A stretch of DNA of 64,000 bases. Source: an uncultured Pelagibacteraceae bacterium (GTDB taxonomy: Bacteria > Pseudomonadota > Alphaproteobacteria > Pelagibacterales > Pelagibacteraceae). The notes under the pieces were generated by a model. It ran no database searches. It was not told where the DNA came from and saw nothing but the letters and a program-made list of their open reading frames with translations. Positions 5,943-15,594 of this stretch are shown piece by piece; within the stretch, counting starts at the first letter, position 1, and the number at the start of each line of letters is the position of its first letter. The DNA lies in the NCBI GenBank assembly GCA_902581605.1, contig CACHPE010000002.1, forward strand, positions 62,001 through 126,000, given 5' to 3'. The position numbers and the translations under genes were made by a program.

Positions 5943-6896
5943 ATGAAAAAAGTTTTAATTACAAGACGCTTGATAAGAGAAAGTGAAGACAAAGCATCTA
6001 AGTTATTTGATGCTAAATTTAATACTAATGATGAACTTTATTCACAAAAAAAAATTATTGAAATGAGTCAAGGATTTGATGGCATATTATCATCACTAAC
6101 TGAAAAATTAGATGCAGAAACAATCAATCAATTACCAGACACAATTAAAATAATTTCTAATTTTGCAGTAGGATTTGGAAACATTGATTTAGAAGCAGCA
6201 AAAAATAAAGGTATAACAGTAACAAATACACCAGAAGTTTTATCAGATGCTACAGCAGAGATTGGAATTTTATTAATTCTAGGAGCATGCAGAAGAGCTT
6301 CCGAAGGAATAGAGTCTGCAAGAGAGGGTGGATGGAAATGGTCTGCTGACTATTTAATTGGAAAACAATTAACTGGAACAAGATTAGGAATTTTAGGTAT
6401 GGGTCGTATTGGCCAAAAAATTGCAAAAATTGCAAAATCTTTGGGTATGGTTATTCATTACCATAATCGTTCAAAATTAAGTGAAGATAAAGAACAAGGT
6501 GCAACATATCATCAAAGCATAAAAAGTCTTTTTTCAGTTTCAGATGTTTTATCAATTTGTTGTCCAGCAACTAAAGAAACAGAGAACTTAATAAATAAAG
6601 AGACTGTTGAGTATTTTCCTAAAGGTGCTGTGATAACTAATGTTGCAAGAGGTGATATAGTAGATGATGAAGCTCTAATTGATGCCTTGAATAGAAGAAA
6701 AATTTATGCAGCAGGATTAGATGTTTATAAAAATGAACCAAATTTAAATCCTGGTTATTTAAAAATCCCAAGTGCTTTCGTTTTACCACATCTTGGGAGT
6801 GCAACAAAAGATACAAGAATTGCAATGGGAAATTTAGCAATTGATAATCTAGACGAGTTTTTTAAAACTGGAAACTGTATCAATAAAGTAAATTAA
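5943..6896 (+). CDS. D-isomer 2-hydroxyacid dehydrogenase (glyoxylate/hydroxypyruvate reductase-like)
   Basis: A 317-residue NAD(P)-dependent enzyme of the D-2-hydroxyacid dehydrogenase family. The Rossmann motif GMGRIGQKIAKIAKSLGM begins near residue 153. The catalytic Arg is in NVARGDIVDDEAL and the catalytic His in LPHLGSATKDTR. Family members reduce glyoxylate to glycolate and hydroxypyruvate to D-glycerate. It starts five bases after glcF and ends two bases before the next gene, so it belongs to the glycolate operon. Context favours glyoxylate or hydroxypyruvate as substrate. Phosphoglycerate dehydrogenase is unlikely because there is no C-terminal ACT domain. Confidence 0.85.
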   Translation: MKKVLITRRLIRESEDKASKLFDAKFNTNDELYSQKKIIEMSQGFDGILSSLTEKLDAETINQLPDTIKIISNFAVGFGNIDLEAAKNKGITVTNTPEVLSDATAEIGILLILGACRRASEGIESAREGGWKWSADYLIGKQLTGTRLGILGMGRIGQKIAKIAKSLGMVIHYHNRSKLSEDKEQGATYHQSIKSLFSVSDVLSICCPATKETENLINKETVEYFPKGAVITNVARGDIVDDEALIDALNRRKIYAAGLDVYKNEPNLNPGYLKIPSAFVLPHLGSATKDTRIAMGNLAIDNLDEFFKTGNCINKVN

Positions 6897-7818: not shown

Positions 7819-8907
7819 TTATTGTAAGTGTTTATAAATTGTTGTTCTAGAAATACCTAATTTTCTAGAAGTTGCAGAAATATTATTTGTTTCATCAAAA
7901 GTTGATCTAATTAAAGTACATTTCTCTCTTTTGATTTTTGTGTCTTCACAATTTTTACAAGTACTTCCTTTTTTTCCTTTTTTTGTTTCAACAAATTTAT
8001 TTTCCTTAAAAATTTGACTTTTGACCACAAAGACAGATGAGCCTAAATGATCAGTAATCATTAATGTTTTATTGTTTAATAAATCTGATGCGATAGATGA
8101 AAATGAATTGGTAAAAATTTTATTAAAATTTTCATTTTTAAGATCTACTAATCCATTAAGCATGACTTTTGCATTACTGTTAGCACCTACAATTAGACCA
8201 TCTCCATTTACAGCCAGCAAACCAACACTTGTTGTTGATAAATATTCTTGTCGTGGGTGAAAGGATAAAATTAATTCATGCTCAAACTTTTTTAAAAATA
8301 ATTTTGTTTCGATGCTTCTGGTTGCTAGTTTCACTAAAGCTAGAGTATGTTGCTCTCTAGACATATAGTCAGTTGAAGCATCTATAATTCCAATAGTCTT
8401 ACCGTCATAATTAATTATTGGACTTGCAAAACATGATATATTCTCATGTGCTGTAAAAAAATGTTCTTTACCAGAAACTATTGTTGGTTTTTTTAATTCT
8501 ACTGATAATCCCAAACCGTTAGTGCCACAGACTTTTTCAGCCCAAATTGATCCAGGTATTACAGTCTTACCTACATCGGTTTGAAGACAAGTTTTGTCAT
8601 ATATAGTGTCAAGCACTAACCCATTCTCATTTGAATATGCGACCATAAAATTAGTTCCAGCAATTTGTGAGTATAAAAGTTCCAATTCTGGGAGTACAAT
8701 TTTTCTAAGAGCTTTATTTTTTTCTTTGATTTCATTTAATTCTATGGAAGAAATTATGCTTTGTCTTGGATCTTTAAATGGATTAAGTCCCTTAGTAATA
8801 CATCTAGACCAACTATCAGAAATATCTTTGCCCATTTTATAGGACATCATTCCTCTTTTTTTTAAAATATTTTTAAACTCATTATTTATCGCTGATAAAT
8901 TGCTCAT
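7819..8907 (-). CDS. GAF-domain/Fis-type HTH transcriptional regulator lacking the AAA+ domain
   Basis: A 362-residue regulator with AcoR-like architecture. The N-terminus contains SDSWSRCITKGLNP, typical of acetoin/alcohol-responsive regulators. A GAF sensor follows (about residues 60-190; CGTNGLGLSVELKKP and FFTAHENISCFASPI), then a PAS-like segment (about 220-310), then a C-terminal Fis-type helix-turn-helix (ISATSRKLGISRTTIYKHL). The AAA+ sigma-54 activation domain, including any GAFTGA loop, is absent. A Cys cluster (CKNCEDTKIKREKC) just before the HTH could bind metal or sense redox. It is divergent from the alcohol dehydrogenase/ABC operon, its likely target. The ligand is unknown. Confidence 0.8.
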   Translation of the reverse strand: MSNLSAINNEFKNILKKRGMMSYKMGKDISDSWSRCITKGLNPFKDPRQSIISSIELNEIKEKNKALRKIVLPELELLYSQIAGTNFMVAYSNENGLVLDTIYDKTCLQTDVGKTVIPGSIWAEKVCGTNGLGLSVELKKPTIVSGKEHFFTAHENISCFASPIINYDGKTIGIIDASTDYMSREQHTLALVKLATRSIETKLFLKKFEHELILSFHPRQEYLSTTSVGLLAVNGDGLIVGANSNAKVMLNGLVDLKNENFNKIFTNSFSSIASDLLNNKTLMITDHLGSSVFVVKSQIFKENKFVETKKGKKGSTCKNCEDTKIKREKCTLIRSTFDETNNISATSRKLGISRTTIYKHLQ

Positions 8908-8974
8908 TTTTAAAGGATAGTTAAAAATATTATATTCAACAACTAACCACAGGTTGTATTTGTAAACTTACTGA

Positions 8975-8988
8975 ACACTTAAAAGTGT
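8975..8988. promoter_or_regulatory. inverted repeat, candidate operator/activator site
   Basis: Perfect inverted repeat with arms ACACTT and AAGTGT around a two-base centre, two bases upstream of the -35 element of the alcohol dehydrogenase promoter. Its centre lies about 44 bases before the predicted transcription start, the position of a class II activator site. The adjacent, divergently encoded Fis-type HTH protein is the obvious candidate binder; this is inference from position only. Confidence 0.5.
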
Positions 8989-8990
8989 CA

Positions 8991-9019
8991 TTGACTCCAG
9001 TGGACTTCGATTTTTTAAT
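8991..9019 (+). promoter_or_regulatory. sigma-70-type promoter for the alcohol dehydrogenase/ABC operon
   Basis: A -35 box TTGACT (8991-8996) and a -10 box TTTAAT (9014-9019), each 5 of 6 matches to consensus, are separated by exactly 17 bases. Transcription would begin near 9026, leaving a short leader with a purine-rich ribosome-binding site (GGGAGAAAAAG) before ATG 9053. Confidence 0.6.
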
Positions 9020-9052
9020 AGGTTTTTAAAAAAAATATAGGGAGAAAAAGAA

Positions 9053-10114
9053 ATGAAAGCACAGGTTTTGCACAAGTATGATCCAGAGATGAAAGAAAAG
9101 GTTTGGGTCACAGGTGAAGAGTTACCAAATCCAAAAATAGAGAAAGCCAGTGATGTAATAGTAAAAATTGGTGCAGCTGGGGTTTGCAGAACAGATTTAC
9201 ATATTATTGAAGGTGTGTGGAAACATATTCAAGACCCAGATGGAAAATTACTTCCTTGCGTTATGGGTCATGAAAATGCAGGCTGGATAGAAGATGTTGG
9301 AAAAGATGTAACAGAATTTAAAAAAGGGGATCCAGTAATTTTGCACCCTTTAATTTCAGGAACAGATGGAACCTGTTTAGATTGTAGAAGAGGCAATGAT
9401 ATGCATGCAGCAGCAGGTGCATTTCCGGGATTAAGTATTAAAGAAGGTGGATATTCAGAACTTTTAAAAACAAGTGTTAGAAACTTGATTAAGTTGCCAA
9501 AAGTCTTAGCTCCCAAAGACGTAGCTCCTTTTTCTGATGCAGGCTTAACAGCTTATAGAGTTGTTAAAAAAGCGACAAGACACTTGCTTCCTGGTCAAAG
9601 TTGTGTGGTGATAGGCGCTGGAGGTTTAGGTCATATCGCAATTCAATGTTTAAAAGCAATGTGTGCAGCAGATATTATTATCGTTGAAAAATCTGAAAAA
9701 GCTTTAAAACATGCTATGGAACTCGGAGGAGATCATGGAGTAATTATTGATGGAAACGAGGTTGAAAAAGTTAAGGAAATAACAAAAGGTGTTGGTGCAG
9801 AAGCAGTTATAGATTTTGTAGGAGAAAAAGGTTCAACATCAATGGGTCTAAATATGACTGCTAACGGTGGTTTCTTTTACATAGTTGGTTATGGTGAGGA
9901 AATAAAAATACTCGCTGTTGATGTAATTATATCTGAAAGAAACATAATTGGAAATTTAGTAGGAACGTGGTCTGAATTATATGAATTAATGGAGTTAGCT
10001 GACAGAGGAAAGGTTAAGTTGTCCATGCAAGAATATAAATTAGACGATGCTAACAAAGCGCTACATGATCTTAATGATGGAAAAGTCAAAGGTCGTGCAG
10101 TGTTAGTTCCATAA
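9053..10114 (+). CDS. zinc-dependent NAD(P) alcohol dehydrogenase (MDR family)
   Basis: A 353-residue medium-chain zinc alcohol dehydrogenase. The catalytic zinc ligands are the Cys in GVCRTDLH and the His in VMGHENAGWIEDVG. The Rossmann motif is VIGAGGLGHIAIQCLKAM. Only the Cys of CLDCRRGNDMH remains of the four-Cys structural zinc lobe, so the structural site looks reduced. It oxidises an alcohol or polyol, or reduces the aldehyde. The binding-protein gene of an ABC importer follows after 23 bases, so the enzyme probably acts on the imported compound. Divergent from an AcoR-like regulator, a family often linked to alcohol or diol use. Substrate unknown. Confidence 0.88.
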   Translation: MKAQVLHKYDPEMKEKVWVTGEELPNPKIEKASDVIVKIGAAGVCRTDLHIIEGVWKHIQDPDGKLLPCVMGHENAGWIEDVGKDVTEFKKGDPVILHPLISGTDGTCLDCRRGNDMHAAAGAFPGLSIKEGGYSELLKTSVRNLIKLPKVLAPKDVAPFSDAGLTAYRVVKKATRHLLPGQSCVVIGAGGLGHIAIQCLKAMCAADIIIVEKSEKALKHAMELGGDHGVIIDGNEVEKVKEITKGVGAEAVIDFVGEKGSTSMGLNMTANGGFFYIVGYGEEIKILAVDVIISERNIIGNLVGTWSELYELMELADRGKVKLSMQEYKLDDANKALHDLNDGKVKGRAVLVP

Positions 10115-10137: not shown

Positions 10138-11673
10138 ATGAAGACAATAAAAACTTGCGTAACTGCTCTTATATCAGCTTTGTTGGTATTTAGTCCAGTC
10201 GCGTATGCAGATAAGTGGAGCGATCAGTTTCCACATATCAAGGCTACTGGAGATATTCCAGGTGAGTGTTCTTACGAGTCTATGTCTAAGAAAAATTACA
10301 AAGGTAAGACACTTAAAATAAATACACATGCTGTTCCAGTTATGGGAGAACCAACAGCTTTACATGCTGAGCAATTTGCTAAACTTACAGGAGCAAAAGT
10401 TGATGTAACACATACACCTGCTGGTGATTTGTATGCAAAAGCTATGGTTCCATTTCAAGCAGGTCAAGCTCCATATGATATAGTTTTTGGATTTTCAAAC
10501 TTTATTAATGATTGGAAAAGATACTTAGAACCAGTTCCAAAAAAGTATGTTGAGATGAAACAAATGCAAGACGTTACTCCATCTCACATTGGTATAGCAT
10601 CTTGGGATGGTGTTATGTATCAGTTTCCAGTTGATGGTGACAGACACTATTTAAAATATAGAAAAGACGTAATTGACAATCCTAAGTATCAAAAAAAATA
10701 TAAGGCTGATACTGGTAAAGAGTTAAGAGTCCCGCAAACATGGAAAGAGTATGGAGAAATGGCAGCATACTTTAATGATTGGGACTGGGATGGTGATGGT
10801 GAGAAAGAATATGGATCTGCAGAGGTTATGAAAAAAGATGACTTGATGTATGCAGCTTTTTATTCAAGATCTGCCGCTTATTCGAAAAATCCTAGAACTC
10901 CAGGTGGTTTTTTCTTTGATTTAAAAACTATGAAACCATTAATTAACAATCCAGGTTTTGTGGAAGCTTTAACCGACTGGGTTGCAGCTACTAAATATGT
11001 TCCTCCAGGAGGAATAAACTTTGGTCTAGGTGATGAAATTGGATCATTCGGTGGAGGACAAACTTTATTTAGTTTTTCATGGGATGATGCATTTGTTGCT
11101 GCTATGCAACCTGATAGCCCAATTAACAATAAAGTTGGTGCCGCTCAATTACCAGGCGCAATGAAAGTTTGGAATAGAACAACTAACTCTTGGGATGAAG
11201 GATTTAACCAAGCTCCTTTCTTCGTGTGGGGATGGGCAGTTGGTGTTGCTAAGAAAAGTAAAGAAAAAGAAATGGCTTTTGATTACTTATGTTTCTTTGC
11301 AAACGAAGCAAATCACCAAGCCGACATAGGTATTGGTCGTTTTGGAGTTAACCCATTTAGAAATGATGACTTTAAAGCAGATGTTTGGACTCAAATTGGT
11401 TGGGATAAAGATATTGCTCAATCATATGTTGATACCTTAGCTCAAATGGAGGAAAGTAAAAATAGAGTTTTTCCTTTAAGAGTTCCAGGTACATTTGAGT
11501 TTAATGCTGCATTAGCTACAGCTGCAGCAAAAGCTTTAGCCGGACAGTTATCACCGCAAGCTGCTTTAGACGAGGCTGCTAAGCAGTGGGAAGATATACT
11601 TAATAGAGTAGGAAAAGATAATGTAAGAGCAGCTTACTCTGTTGGTGTAGCAATGGAAGATAATAAGCTTTAA
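10138..11673 (+). CDS. ABC transporter substrate-binding protein (carbohydrate/polyol, family 1)
   Basis: A 511-residue periplasmic binding protein with a Sec signal peptide (basic start MKTIKTC, hydrophobic core, cleavage after AYA near residue 24). The body resembles family 1 extracellular solute-binding proteins (PYDIVFGFSNFINDW; MAFDYLCFFANEANH), but it is longer than the usual 400-450 residues. An acidic DWDWDGDGEKEYG loop (about D214-G226) has the spacing of an EF-hand-like calcium-binding loop. It heads an operon of two permeases and two ATPases, downstream of a zinc alcohol dehydrogenase. The number and type of genes recall the rhizobial glycerol importer GlpSTPQV, but the ligand is not proven. 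Confidence 0.88.
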   Translation: MKTIKTCVTALISALLVFSPVAYADKWSDQFPHIKATGDIPGECSYESMSKKNYKGKTLKINTHAVPVMGEPTALHAEQFAKLTGAKVDVTHTPAGDLYAKAMVPFQAGQAPYDIVFGFSNFINDWKRYLEPVPKKYVEMKQMQDVTPSHIGIASWDGVMYQFPVDGDRHYLKYRKDVIDNPKYQKKYKADTGKELRVPQTWKEYGEMAAYFNDWDWDGDGEKEYGSAEVMKKDDLMYAAFYSRSAAYSKNPRTPGGFFFDLKTMKPLINNPGFVEALTDWVAATKYVPPGGINFGLGDEIGSFGGGQTLFSFSWDDAFVAAMQPDSPINNKVGAAQLPGAMKVWNRTTNSWDEGFNQAPFFVWGWAVGVAKKSKEKEMAFDYLCFFANEANHQADIGIGRFGVNPFRNDDFKADVWTQIGWDKDIAQSYVDTLAQMEESKNRVFPLRVPGTFEFNAALATAAAKALAGQLSPQAALDEAAKQWEDILNRVGKDNVRAAYSVGVAMEDNKL

Positions 11674-11682
11674 ACAAAAACT

Positions 11683-11709
11683 TTGTGGCCGTCTTAATGA
11701 CGGCCACAA
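11683..11709 (+). promoter_or_regulatory. strong intercistronic hairpin without T tract (mRNA stabiliser)
   Basis: A perfect 11-base-pair GC-rich stem (11683-11693 with 11699-11709) around the loop TTAAT lies ten bases after the binding-protein stop. No T run follows, so it is not a typical terminator. Such a hairpin can protect the upstream message from 3' exonucleases and raise binding-protein yield over the permeases. Confidence 0.75.
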
Positions 11710-11734
11710 CTAACAAAATCCAAAAATTGCAATT

Positions 11735-12601
11735 ATGAATTTTAAGCACAAGTATGTTTTTTTATTTCCTGGCTTATTTGTGCTTATAGGAATACTTATT
11801 TTTCCAATTATTTTTACTATCAGATTAAGTTTATCAGGCTGGAATAGTTATACACCTGAAATGAATTTTATAGGGATTACAAATTATATTAGACTTTTTA
11901 CTGATGACCCAAGATTTTGGGAGTCTTTTTTTAGACTCAGTTTTTTATCAGTTACTACAGTTATTCTTCAATACATTATTGGTTTTGCATTAGCACTTAT
12001 AGTGTGGAGAGAAATTAAATTTAAAAGATTCTTCAGAGTCATATTCTTGATTCCTATGATGACTACTCCTGTAATTATGACAGTAATTTGGAGAACTTTT
12101 TTTCATGAGTCTTTAGGTCCTGTAAATGATCTTTTGGGAAACTTTGGAGTAAAGCCTATTTTATGGCTCAGTGATCCAGTTATTGCTAAATTTACTGTAA
12201 TTATTGTTGAAGTATGGCAGTGGACACCATTTATGTTTTTATTGTTACTTGCAGGTTTATTATCTCTGCCAAAAGAACCTTTTTTAGCCGCTGCAATAGA
12301 TGGGGCAAGTCCTTTTAGAAAGTTTGTATATGTTACATTTCCACTTATGGCGCCAATATCAATAGGGGCAATTATTATTAGATTAATTGAGGCCTCAAAG
12401 ATAATGGATACAGTTTTTGTATTAACTTCTGGAGGACCAGGTACCGCAACAGAAACTTCAAGTTTTTATATTTATATTAAAGGCTTAAGGGAGTTTCAAA
12501 TGGGTTATGCTGCAACTCTTTCTTTTACTTATTTAGTTATAATGATCATAAGTTTAACAATCATTGCAAAGGTCTTAACAAAATTAATGATTAAAGAATA
12601 A
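11735..12601 (+). CDS. ABC transporter permease (carbohydrate type, MalF-like)
   Basis: A 288-residue inner-membrane permease with six predicted membrane segments, beginning FLFPGLFVLIGILIFPIIFT. The ATPase-contact (EAA) loop reads EPFLAAAIDGASPFRKFVYVTFPLM, shown here only by its landmarks EPFLAAAIDGAS and FVYVTFPLM. TSGGPGTATETSSFYIY is typical of sugar and polyol permeases. It pairs with the next permease, whose ATG follows or overlaps the stop codon, so the two are made together. The low hydrophilic content and lack of any N-terminal extension are ordinary for the family. Confidence 0.9.
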   Translation: MNFKHKYVFLFPGLFVLIGILIFPIIFTIRLSLSGWNSYTPEMNFIGITNYIRLFTDDPRFWESFFRLSFLSVTTVILQYIIGFALALIVWREIKFKRFFRVIFLIPMMTTPVIMTVIWRTFFHESLGPVNDLLGNFGVKPILWLSDPVIAKFTVIIVEVWQWTPFMFLLLLAGLLSLPKEPFLAAAIDGASPFRKFVYVTFPLMAPISIGAIIIRLIEASKIMDTVFVLTSGGPGTATETSSFYIYIKGLREFQMGYAATLSFTYLVIMIISLTIIAKVLTKLMIKE

Positions 12602-13449
12602 TGGAAAAACTATACAAATTTTTAAAATATACTTTTATTATTCTCTGGACTGTTTTTATTGTAGCTCCTTTTCTGTGGGCTATCTCTACTTCTTTTAAAG
12701 ATTTCCAGTCAGTAAATAGTAAGGTTACTTACATTCCCTGGTTAGATTTTGAACCAACACTTGAAGGATGGCGTGTATTAGTTAAATCACCTGCAAGAGG
12801 TGGTGTCGATATTGTTGAACCTTACTTTAATAGTCTTTTTGTAACCTGTACAGCAAGTTTAATAAGTATAGTTTTAGGAACTTTGGCAGCTTATGCTCTA
12901 TCAAGATTTACTTTTAAAGCTGGTTTTGTCAGAAATAACGATATTACTTTCTTCTTTATATCACAAAGAATAATGCCACCCATTGTTTTATCAATTCCCT
13001 TCTTTATATTTTTAAGCACAATAGGATTATTAGATAGTTTGATAGGACTAGTAGTAGTTTATATAGTTCTTTTAATGCCTATTGCAGTTTGGATTATGGT
13101 AGATTTTTTTAACAGAGTTCCAAAAGAGTTAGATGAAACTGCACTTATTGATGGATGTAATCCCTATCAAGCCTTTTATAAAGTAGTTTTACCAAACTCC
13201 ATCCCTGGATTAATTGTTGCTGGTATGTTTTGTATAATATTTGGTTGGATTGACTTCTTCTTTGCTTTTATTTTAACTTTTACTGAAGTGCAATTATTAC
13301 CAGTTAAAGTGGTAGCTTTAAATTCTTCTATTACGCCTTGGTGGAGTCTATCAGCATCTGCCTTAATATCTGTGGCTCCACTTATAATAGTCGCTTTTGT
13401 GGTTGAAAGATATTTGTCTAAAGGAAATTTATCAGGAGCCTTAAAATAA
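12601..13449 (+). CDS. ABC transporter permease (carbohydrate type, MalG-like)
   Basis: A 282-residue MalG-type permease, six predicted membrane segments. The N-terminus has the WAISTSFKDFQ segment of this family, and the EAA loop contains ELDETALIDGCNPYQAF and VVLPNSIPGL. It overlaps the upstream permease stop and the downstream ATPase start by one base each, so the transporter genes are translationally coupled. It forms the second half of the membrane pore. Substrate as for the operon: a sugar or polyol is likely. Confidence 0.9.
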   Translation: MEKLYKFLKYTFIILWTVFIVAPFLWAISTSFKDFQSVNSKVTYIPWLDFEPTLEGWRVLVKSPARGGVDIVEPYFNSLFVTCTASLISIVLGTLAAYALSRFTFKAGFVRNNDITFFFISQRIMPPIVLSIPFFIFLSTIGLLDSLIGLVVVYIVLLMPIAVWIMVDFFNRVPKELDETALIDGCNPYQAFYKVVLPNSIPGLIVAGMFCIIFGWIDFFFAFILTFTEVQLLPVKVVALNSSITPWWSLSASALISVAPLIIVAFVVERYLSKGNLSGALK

Positions 13450-14528
13450 TGAACCTGATTGCAAAACATTTAACTTACAAACCTGATGATCAGTATCATC
13501 TTAATGATGTTTCTTTTAATTTTGAAAAAGGAAGACTTTATACTATTCTTGGACGTACATTGTCTGGCAAAACAACACTATTAAAGACAATAGCTGGTTT
13601 ATTAAATCCAGATAGTGGAAATATAAATTTTGAAGATAAAAATTTTAGCAAAGTGCCAGTATGGGAAAGAAATGTTGCTATGGTTTATCAGCAATTTATC
13701 AATTACCCCCATTTGAGTGTTTATGAAAATATTTCATTTCCACTAAAACAGAGAAAATTAAATGAGGAAAATATAAAAAAGAACGTTGACGATGCCTTAA
13801 AAACGGTTGGTTTAGTAGGTTTTGAAAATAGAAAAATCCAAGAATTATCTGGAGGACAGCAACAAAGGGTAGCATTAGCAAGATCATTAGCGAAAAAAGC
13901 AAAAATCTTATTATTAGATGAACCTCTTGTTAACCTTGATTATAAACTTCGTGAACAACTTAGAGAGGAATTTAAAACCATATTTAATGAGGGATTGGCT
14001 AATGAGACTATTTTAATTTATTCAACCACTGACCCACAAGAAGTTATGGAATTAAATGGAGAGGTAATTGTACTTGATGAGGGTAAAGTTTTACAAACAG
14101 GTCCAGCTAAAGATATTTTTGAAAATCCAATTAACCTCAAAGTTGCTGAAATTTCAAATGACCCTCCGATGAATATTATAAATGGCTTAAAAATTGATGG
14201 TAAAATTACTTTCGAAAATATCAACATCAAACTACCAAAACATTTATCTCAATTAGATAATAAAAATTATAATTTTGGAATTAGATCTTCAGAAATTAAG
14301 CTTAGTGATAGCGGTGAGGAATTTGAAATAGAGTTAGCAGAAATTAGTGGGTCAGAAACACTATTACATTTAAAAAGAGGAAGTATAAAAGTTATTGCAT
14401 TGATTGAAGAAGTTATGAATTTTAAAATTCACGAAAAAGTAAAAGTTGTGTTCAATGTTGATAAATTTTATGTTTTTGCAGAGGATGGAAAATTAATCTC
14501 ATCACCATATAGGATTAATAATGGCTAA
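13449..14528 (+). CDS. ABC transporter ATP-binding protein A, H-loop His replaced
   Basis: A 359-residue MalK-like ATPase with a C-terminal TOBE/OB region. Walker A (GRTLSGKTT), Q-loop (VYQQF), signature LSGGQ at residues 133-137 and Walker B (ILLLDEP) are intact. The switch His, expected in a THD motif, is Thr (STTDPQEV; T194). This protein's own ATP site is therefore probably impaired, while its signature can still serve the partner. It shares eight bases with the next ATPase gene. Two different ATPase genes in one importer operon indicate a heterodimer, as known for the rhizobial glycerol transporter. Confidence 0.9.
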   Translation: MNLIAKHLTYKPDDQYHLNDVSFNFEKGRLYTILGRTLSGKTTLLKTIAGLLNPDSGNINFEDKNFSKVPVWERNVAMVYQQFINYPHLSVYENISFPLKQRKLNEENIKKNVDDALKTVGLVGFENRKIQELSGGQQQRVALARSLAKKAKILLLDEPLVNLDYKLREQLREEFKTIFNEGLANETILIYSTTDPQEVMELNGEVIVLDEGKVLQTGPAKDIFENPINLKVAEISNDPPMNIINGLKIDGKITFENINIKLPKHLSQLDNKNYNFGIRSSEIKLSDSGEEFEIELAEISGSETLLHLKRGSIKVIALIEEVMNFKIHEKVKVVFNVDKFYVFAEDGKLISSPYRINNG

Positions 14529-15594
14529 AATAGATCTATCAAATATCTCACATACTTATAACCCAAAAGATTTAGAACCTACTTATGCACTAAATCCATT
14601 TTCGATGACATGGGAAAATGGTAAACGTTACGCAATACTTGGACCATCTGGTTGTGGAAAAACAACTATGTTAAATATTGTATCAGGTTTAATAAAGCCT
14701 ACTCAAGGTAGGATACTGTTTGATAATGAAGATGTAACTGGCCAAAAAACTGAAACCAGAAATATTTCGCAGGTATTTCAGTTTCCGGTAATTTACAACA
14801 CAATGTCAGTATATGATAATTTAGCGTTTCCGTTAAAGTGTCGAGATTTTGAAAAGAATAAAATTGAGGAGAGAGTTCAATCTGTATCTGAAACATTAAA
14901 TCTTTCTTCATTTCTTAACATGCCCGCAAGGAAACTTACGGCAGATCAAAAACAACTCATTTCATTAGGAAGAGGATTAGTAAGGGAAGATGTAGCTGCT
15001 GTATTAATGGATGAACCATTAACGGTTATTGATCCAGACTTAAAATTTAGATTGAGAAGAAATTTAAAAGAAATTAATGAAGAATATAAAACAACATTAG
15101 TATATGTTACTCATGATCAAAATGAAGCGATGACATTTGCTGACAATATTATTGTAATGGACCAAGGTGAAATAGTTCAGGTTGGGCTTCCCAAAGATTT
15201 ATTTGAAAGACCTAAAACTACTTTTGTTGGTTATTTTATTGGTTCTCCTGCAATGAATTTATTTGAAACCCAATTACACACAGACAATAGTGTAAAAATT
15301 AACGACACAATAATAAAAACAAATACAAATTTATCAAAATTGAAAAATAATAATATAAAACTAGGAATTAGATCAGAATTTGTAAAAGTAGCAAAAGATG
15401 AAAGCGAGAATTTGGTAGAAGTTAATATTCAAAAAATAGAAGACTTTGGAAACTTCAAACTACTAACCACAAGAATGGGTCAACTAACAATAAAGTCAAA
15501 AATCAATAGAGAAATTGAAATTACTAATGATAAGGTAAAATTACATTTTCCCCCTGAAAAATGTTGTGTATACCAAAATAACAAATTGATCTAA
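14521..15594 (+). CDS. ABC transporter ATP-binding protein B, degenerate signature motif
   Basis: A 357-residue MalK-like ATPase with intact Walker A (GPSGCGKTT), Q-loop (VFQFP), Walker B (AVLMDEP) and switch His (YVTHDQNEAM). The ABC signature is degraded: LTADQ at residues 139-143 instead of LSGGQ, and the D-loop reads TVID rather than the usual LD-containing form. The C-terminal regulatory/TOBE region is present. Its defect complements that of protein A, so the heterodimer would have one complete and one crippled ATP site. The start overlaps the upstream gene by eight bases. Confidence 0.9.
   Translation: MAKIDLSNISHTYNPKDLEPTYALNPFSMTWENGKRYAILGPSGCGKTTMLNIVSGLIKPTQGRILFDNEDVTGQKTETRNISQVFQFPVIYNTMSVYDNLAFPLKCRDFEKNKIEERVQSVSETLNLSSFLNMPARKLTADQKQLISLGRGLVREDVAAVLMDEPLTVIDPDLKFRLRRNLKEINEEYKTTLVYVTHDQNEAMTFADNIIVMDQGEIVQVGLPKDLFERPKTTFVGYFIGSPAMNLFETQLHTDNSVKINDTIIKTNTNLSKLKNNNIKLGIRSEFVKVAKDESENLVEVNIQKIEDFGNFKLLTTRMGQLTIKSKINREIEITNDKVKLHFPPEKCCVYQNNKLI

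Follow-up and report, generated by a model that had tools for sequence, protein, structure and literature searches.

Predicted operator of an AAA+-less GAF-HTH regulator beside a sigma-70-type promoter in SAR11 bacteria

INTRODUCTION

TyrR and GcsR, two regulators of the enhancer-binding protein (EBP) family, carry an AAA+ domain, and DhaR of Escherichia coli works at a sigma-70 promoter. The GAFTGA motif is the loop that contacts sigma-54 (PMC7175178). NtrC proteins without GAFTGA, in Rhodobacter capsulatus and Caulobacter, act at sigma-70 promoters; they keep the AAA+ domain, and ATP binding is reported to be essential in R. capsulatus (PMC10274813). EBPs bind tandem dyads, and the sites of TyrR and GcsR are TGTAAA-N6-TTTACA and TGTAACG-N4-CGTTCCG, respectively (PMC4894688). 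EBPs that have shifted to sigma-70 are thus already published, and the cases cited here keep the AAA+ domain; in the regulator described below the domain is gone.

SAR11 bacteria are an abundant marine group with few characterized regulators. The window that we analyzed is a stretch of 64,000 nucleotides from a draft Pelagibacteraceae (SAR11) genome (1.16 Mb, 36 contigs, 82% complete). In it, a 145-bp gap (8908-9052) lies between a leftward regulator gene (7819-8907) and a rightward operon for a Zn-dependent alcohol dehydrogenase (ADH) and an ABC transporter. This regulator resembles NtrC of R. capsulatus and Caulobacter in that it would be an alphaproteobacterial activator that has left sigma-54 for sigma-70 promoters, the promoter type being assigned here by sequence; it differs in that the AAA+ domain kept there is gone here and no sigma-54 was found. 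Its proposed operator is, like those described for TyrR and GcsR, a TGT-led dyad of an EBP-family regulator (tandem in the case of GcsR), but the half-site here is TGTTCA-like and the centre is 5 bp long. A literature search at the level of titles and the beginnings of abstracts, with few subscription journals covered, returned nothing on this regulator or on an AAA+-less EBP-derived regulator.

RESULTS

The locus and the sampled gaps

The dehydrogenase gene (9053-10114, plus strand; Pfam ADH_N and ADH_zinc_N) is the first gene from the promoter, and a Shine-Dalgarno-like GGGAG is seen before it at 9040-9044 on the same strand. ABC transporter open reading frames follow at 10138-15594; a solute-binding protein and one permease were recognized by family search and two ATPases by the Walker motifs in the list of open reading frames.

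Regulator orthologues were present in 18 of 397 genomes drawn from the family and in 36 of 399 drawn from the genus (the window's own genome counted), and 80 of 118 loci in assembled genome contigs were kept. Many of the loci L001-L041 come from the same genomes as L042-L121. Together with the window, L001-L121 made 122 sources and gave 116 gaps between the starts of the regulator and ADH, 77 of them distinct. Two 1035-bp gaps with an inserted SDR gene were excluded from the ADH-type alignment and re-entered as SDR-type gaps, and nine deep gaps (48 to 51% identity) were kept out of the SAR11 counts. The SAR11 sets comprise 66 distinct ADH-type gaps, or 70 gaps when four distinct SDR-type gaps are included; the gaps share kinship, so the counts given below are not independent events.

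A shared architecture with a sigma-70-type promoter

All 70 distinct SAR11 gaps have the arrangement O1-(2 or 3 bp)-O2-(13 bp)-NNGACT-(17 bp)-T[TC]N[AG]ATA, in which O1 and O2 are dyads; this pattern was composed after the alignment had been viewed, so the 70 of 70 is a description and no test. The 13 bp from O2 to the -35 element and the 17 bp from -35 to -10 are constant in every one of them, whereas the distance from the -10 element to the ATG ranges from 28 to 48 bp (70 gaps) and that from the regulator start to O1 from 29 to 33 bp (66 ADH-type gaps). These fixed spacings between variable flanks support the promoter. In the window it reads TTGACT (8991-8996) and TTTAAT (9014-9019) on the plus strand, 17 bases apart, each with five of six consensus matches, and the -10 hexamer is followed by an invariant A. 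The initial annotation had called this a good sigma-70 promoter, and it is indeed sigma-70-like, its 17-bp spacer being kept in all 70 gaps. TTGACT is found in 65 of the 70; the TTG was changed in five, unlike GACT, which is always present. The -10 heptamers are TTTAATA (59 gaps), TTGGATA (5), TTGAATA (2), TCTAATA (2), and TCCAATA (2), and none of the 70 has an A at position 2. A promoter scan requiring an A as the second base of the -10 hexamer omits TTGACT-17-TTTAAT, as TTTAAT has a T there. Promoter-like pairs scoring at least 10/12 arose in 8% of 2000 dinucleotide shuffles of the gap, and the window holds 20 on the plus and 31 on the minus strand. The promoter and the palindrome that overlaps O2 (discussed below) are both real, and neither is remarkable from a single sequence alone.

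Conservation continues past the -35 hexamer in GACTCC (8993-8998), with C8997 kept in 94% and C8998 in 91% of the 66 gaps. When the minus strand of the gap was scanned for a promoter of the regulator gene, no pair scored at least 8/12 with a spacer of 16 to 18, and a convincing regulator promoter was not found in 8908-8938.

O2, the proposed operator

O2 (8961-8977; centre 8969, about -57) is a 17-bp dyad of the type TGTTCA-N5-TGAACA and reads TGTAAA-CTTAC-TGAACA in the window. Of the 145 columns of the 66-gap alignment, 31 are invariant, and at O2 nine of the 12 motif letters coincide with such columns (66 of 66 gaps), compared to five at the next best position; none of 2000 shuffled motifs reached nine. 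Scored against TGTTCA-N5-TGAACA, O2 has 9 to 11 of 12 letters and is the best 17-mer of the gap in 65 of 70 cases, with a different 17-mer ahead by one in the other five; five of 350 shuffled gaps scored at least 10/12. The left half is degenerate in SAR11 (mostly TGTNAA). The 12-letter motif was picked from L141-L143 after the TGT...ACA symmetry had been noticed in SAR11, and this choice was not blind. When a 22-mer O2 pattern was searched with up to two mismatches, it found the gap in six of nine regulator-bearing genomes and missed it in G017, G063, and G078; other matches in the genomes (two mismatches) were at the control level. O2 appears to be an operator bound by the divergent GAF-HTH regulator and inherited from a sigma-54 enhancer system.

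O1, a SAR11-specific dyad

Upstream of O2 lies a second dyad, O1 (ACAAC-N9-GTTGT, 8939-8957, about -78), the centre of which is 21 bp from that of O2. Of the 70 gaps, 65 keep all five of its outer pairs and the remaining five keep four. The full O1 motif (zero or one mismatch) occurs exactly once, at the gap, in each of nine regulator-bearing genomes and in none of four regulator-less genomes. Matches with two mismatches are about as frequent as those of the reversed-pattern control, and the bare dyad is present at three places in the window's own genome (the reversed control at five). Among the relatives examined outside SAR11, no counterpart of O1 was seen. O1 was also compared by eye with the O2 motif as a possible copy of it, and no register fits. 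It is probable that O1 is a second regulator site or an autoregulatory element.

Natural swaps on either side of the gap

An SDR gene, so named from its sequence without a family search, takes the place of ADH opposite the regulator in five loci (L010, L078, L081, L083, and L086), and O1, O2, GACT, and the -10 element are all retained there. ADH follows the SDR gene in L078 and L081; only its last 53 residues match in L010, L083, and L086. The converse case is given by eight genomes (L126 and L133-L139) that have the dehydrogenase and in which a search at E 0.001 found no regulator. In the 200 bp before their dehydrogenase there is neither the full architecture nor GACT-17-(-10); the best 17-mer scores 7 or 8 of 12, and O1 is at least three mismatches off. 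These leaders retain AAGTTGTA at the end of an O1-like stretch, perhaps as a remnant or by chance. They are closely alike and so count as about one case. The gene directly upstream of ADH in these eight genomes is a 2-hydroxyacid dehydrogenase gene, kin of the one at 5943-6896 of the window, and the leader is different.

The regulator protein

The regulator (7819-8907, minus strand) has 362 amino acids and comprises a GAF domain, a PAS-like region, a CxxC...C linker, and a probable Fis-type HTH. Pfam GAF matches with 26.2 bits; HTH_8, at 20.9 bits, is just below its cutoff of 22, and this part of the protein aligns with full EBPs. The AlphaFold model, a weak one (mean pLDDT of 60.7 overall), has three helices at 324-361, and the PAS-like region is modeled there as strands and helices at 212-296. 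The initial annotation had described the regulator as lacking AAA+, and this was borne out: Pfam Sigma54_activat (AAA+) has no match in the window protein, nor in L017, L112, or L141, and the GAFTGA loop is absent from the window regulator, the domain that carries it being missing in the alignment. The sole NCBIfam match is DhaR (NF008485; residues 23-251, 74.3 bits against a cutoff of 551). Searching the PDB with the single protein returned no relatives, and the one match of a profile search, an acetyltransferase at E 0.055, was rejected.

Three states of the AAA+ domain among relatives

At E 1e-20 the regulator was matched in 15 of 385 genomes drawn from the class, two of which are SAR11 genomes. 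In G1065 (L143) and G1027 (L142) this divergent regulator/ADH pair recurs, and the regulator is full length. We added four other genomes from the genus of G1065, plasmids of Aminobacter, Rhizobium (two), Ensifer, Tabrizicola, and Ponticoccus, and G1184.

The intact state is represented by L143 and L155-L162. Sigma54_activat scores 191 to 195 bits in the four proteins scanned (L143, L159, L160, and L162), and the loop is GAFTGA in L143 and L155-L158 and GAFTNA in L159-L162. A -24/-12 promoter, TGGCAC-N5-TTGC, is matched at 10 of 10 letters in eight of nine gaps and at 9 of 10 in L158. The TGTTCA-type 17-mers of these gaps score 9 to 11 of 12; L159 and L162, at 9/12, have weak sites, because random 200-mers reach a best score of at least 9/12 in 14% of cases at 30% GC and 3.4% at 60% GC (at least 10/12: 1.2% and 0.3%). 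These DhaR-type/NtrC-family EBPs are like the SAR11 protein in their GAF-led sensor (36 to 39% identity), divergent ADH, and 17-bp dyad, and they have a Fis-type HTH, which is probable in the SAR11 protein. They are unlike it in that the SAR11 protein is without AAA+, no sigma-54 gene was found, and there is no -24/-12 promoter, the best match in the 70 SAR11 gaps being 5 to 7 of 10 compared to 9 or 10 of 10 in the nine intact-AAA+ relatives.

In the degenerate state, Sigma54_activat scores 28 bits in L142 and 45 bits in L163 and has no match in L164. L142, L163, and L164 have lost loop 1 and the acidic pair of Walker B, as has L168 by reading of its sequence; Walker A is still legible in L142, L163, and L168. 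The loss of GAFTGA, the trait known from R. capsulatus NtrC, is thus found in these four, and in SAR11 the whole domain is lost. No -24/-12 promoter was found in the four gaps (best match at most 7 of 10), and the dyad is kept, at 12/12 in L142 and 10/12 in L163 and L164. L168 also scores 10/12, with TGTCCA-N5-TGGACA, a perfect dyad in which both arms are changed relative to L142. The AAA+-absent state is seen in L141 and in nine distinct gaps of L112-L121, which score 11 or 12 of 12, and SAR11 is in the same state.

Sigma-54 was found in all five relatives with AAA+-length regulators, including G1065 and G1027, and was not found in G750, whose regulator is AAA+-less. PF00309 had no match in 11 SAR11 genomes (completeness at least 90% in 10 and 82% in the window's own genome), and PF04552 had none in four of those same genomes.

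The distance between operator and promoter differs by lineage: it is 13 bp in SAR11, whereas L112 and L114 have their proximal site at 0 bp and L141 its best site at 50 bp. Therefore, no helical phase is common to the lineages. In deep relatives, as read out for L112 and L114, a weaker TGAACA site (8/12) abuts TTGGA[TA]-17-TT[TA]AAT, and class II geometry, as judged from the letters, does occur in these deep relatives rather than in SAR11. Site pairs lie 32 to 34 bp apart in the intact state and in L142, L168, and L164, and 43 to 49 bp apart in L141 and four of L112-L121; they were picked by hand, one per gap where several were possible, and their weaker member scores 8 or 9 of 12. We offer a tandem arrangement of the operator as a suggestion.

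For 40 regulators, a tree was built on 339 columns that exclude AAA+ and correspond to residues 1-295 and 319-362 of the window protein. The 21 AAA+-less regulators of the locus form one clade with support of 100/98. Two degenerate proteins, L142 and L164, branch beside this clade (88/66 and 93/94; long branches), and L163 is unplaced. This placement makes it likely that the sigma-54 loop and the promoter were lost before the AAA+ domain. Two plasmid proteins from Sphingomonas and Aureimonas (L165, 3411-4451; L166, 3411-4484) are GAF-HTH_8 proteins that likewise have no AAA+, encoded divergently to an aldehyde dehydrogenase gene. They differ from the regulators of this locus in that they group with AAA+-length proteins outside the clade, apparently as a separate loss; AAA+ thus seems to have disappeared on more than one occasion.

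DISCUSSION

We propose that the gap at 8908-9052 is the control region of the dehydrogenase/ABC transporter operon and that the regulator descends from a DhaR-like EBP. The AAA+ domain of this ancestor probably lost the sigma-54-contacting loop and the Walker B acidic pair first and would then have been deleted. With +1 assumed at 9026, the regulator would bind O2 (-57) and probably also O1 (-78, two helical turns upstream). The bound regulator would most likely contact RNA polymerase at the alpha C-terminal domain or sigma region 4, and sigma-70 polymerase would be recruited and activated when the GAF domain senses its signal. The -10 element is without the usual A at position 2, so the promoter may need such help. 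Overall, we consider it probable that the ex-EBP regulator binds O2, with O1, and recruits sigma-70 polymerase at TTGACT-17-TTTAAT. This explanation is built on the conservation of the gap, the sharing of the motif, the state of the AAA+ domain, and the fact that no sigma-54 was found in the SAR11 genomes searched. Binding, an activating and not a repressing effect, the surface contacted, the signal sensed, the position of the start site, and the order of the losses are what we infer from these observations.

The chances seem to us evenly balanced that one and the same promoter-regulator pair has been kept at successive stages of a conversion from sigma-54 to sigma-70. These stages would be an intact EBP with a -24/-12 promoter, a protein that has lost the loop and the Walker B acidic pair at a locus without -24/-12, and a protein from which AAA+ has been deleted. 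The lineage of G1027, at the putative middle stage, still has sigma-54; at the SAR11 stage none was found, and the presumed operator stands at a fixed distance from the -35 and -10 elements. If such a stepwise conversion is true, the sensor, the HTH, and the operator would suffice for recruitment of polymerase. The orthologous loci suggest an order of losses with the operator retained, so that the change from an enhancer system to a simple activator becomes testable with matched natural pairs, and they provide a predicted operator for a SAR11 regulator.

A different site had been put forward in the initial annotation, which took a 14-base palindrome, ACACTTAAAAGTGT at 8975-8988, to be the place where the regulator binds as a class II activator and recruits RNA polymerase directly. 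The letters are as described there. Six-base-pair arms (ACACTT and AAGTGT) enclose a 2-bp centre (AA), two bases separate the repeat from TTGACT, and its centre (8981.5) is at -44.5 when +1 is assumed 7 nt past the -10 element, at 9026, which is the right distance in the window. However, the repeat fails when it is compared across the 70 distinct SAR11 gaps, as all six pairs are intact in only seven of them. Counted from the outermost pair inward, departures from the window letter number 53, 20, 43, 9, 11, and 8 in the right arm and 0, 0, 0, 13, 5, and 0 in the left arm, and four of 420 cells are compensated. Three of six pairs are kept in the four SDR-type gaps and two or three in the seven deepest SAR11 gaps. 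The left ACA (8975-8977) is invariant because it is the right end of O2. The seven perfect copies are spread over three parts of the regulator tree (the window; L037; L013 and its kin), so the palindrome may have existed in the common ancestor, but repeats of this class (6-bp arms, centre of at most 2 bp) also arise in 28% of 2000 dinucleotide shuffles of the gap (mean, 0.38), or in 5.8% when at least two G/C per arm are demanded, and the window carries 155 of them, 39 with that G/C content. With a right arm that drifts without compensation beside an invariant left ACA, we rejected the palindrome as the operator, and a regulator site at about -44 appears extremely improbable. The class II position falls with it, as the conserved O2 is centred near -57 and ends 13 bp before the -35 element in 70 of 70 gaps. 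What stands of the earlier proposal is the idea of a former EBP working without sigma-54, none having been found in the SAR11 genomes searched, and direct recruitment of polymerase, as a mechanism, is plausible; its site and its class II geometry do not stand.

The main rival to recruitment from O2 is repression, in which the regulator would repress its own gene through O1, or the operon, and the sigma-70 promoter would work unaided. O1 lies 29 to 33 bp from the regulator start codon in the 66 ADH-type gaps, a position fit for autorepression, and it is limited to regulator-bearing genomes. Against this, neither O1 nor O2 overlaps the -35 or -10 element, the missing A at position 2 of the -10 suits a promoter that needs help, and the relatives that combine an intact AAA+ domain with -24/-12 promoters belong to a family of activators; we therefore regard repression as unlikely, though a serious alternative. 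One could also read the conserved block as an RNA leader rather than as protein sites, with O1 as a hairpin and GACTCC pairing with the Shine-Dalgarno sequence. The 6-bp consensus hairpin of O1 does score -5.0 compared to -0.07 (sd, 0.29) in column shuffles, which is expected of any conserved inverted repeat, and GACTCC is able to pair with GGAGTC in L083. On the other hand, there was no Rfam match up to E = 1, the covariation term is near zero (0.09), and 8936-9052 has no other consensus pair. Moreover, the spacings of 13 bp and 17 bp do not change, whereas the start codon lies at differing distances, and O2-type sites recur in distant GC-rich relatives. This makes an RNA leader very improbable.

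Recruitment of sigma-70 polymerase by a regulator bound at O2 is thus the reading that we prefer. A further feature of the regulator is a cysteine cluster, CxxC-N9-C (C317, C320, and C330), just before the HTH. It does not vary among the 16 AAA+-less proteins that were aligned; L142, L159, L160, L162, L163, and L164 also have it, and L143, L155, L157, and L158 do not. Possibly, this cluster is a metal or redox switch.
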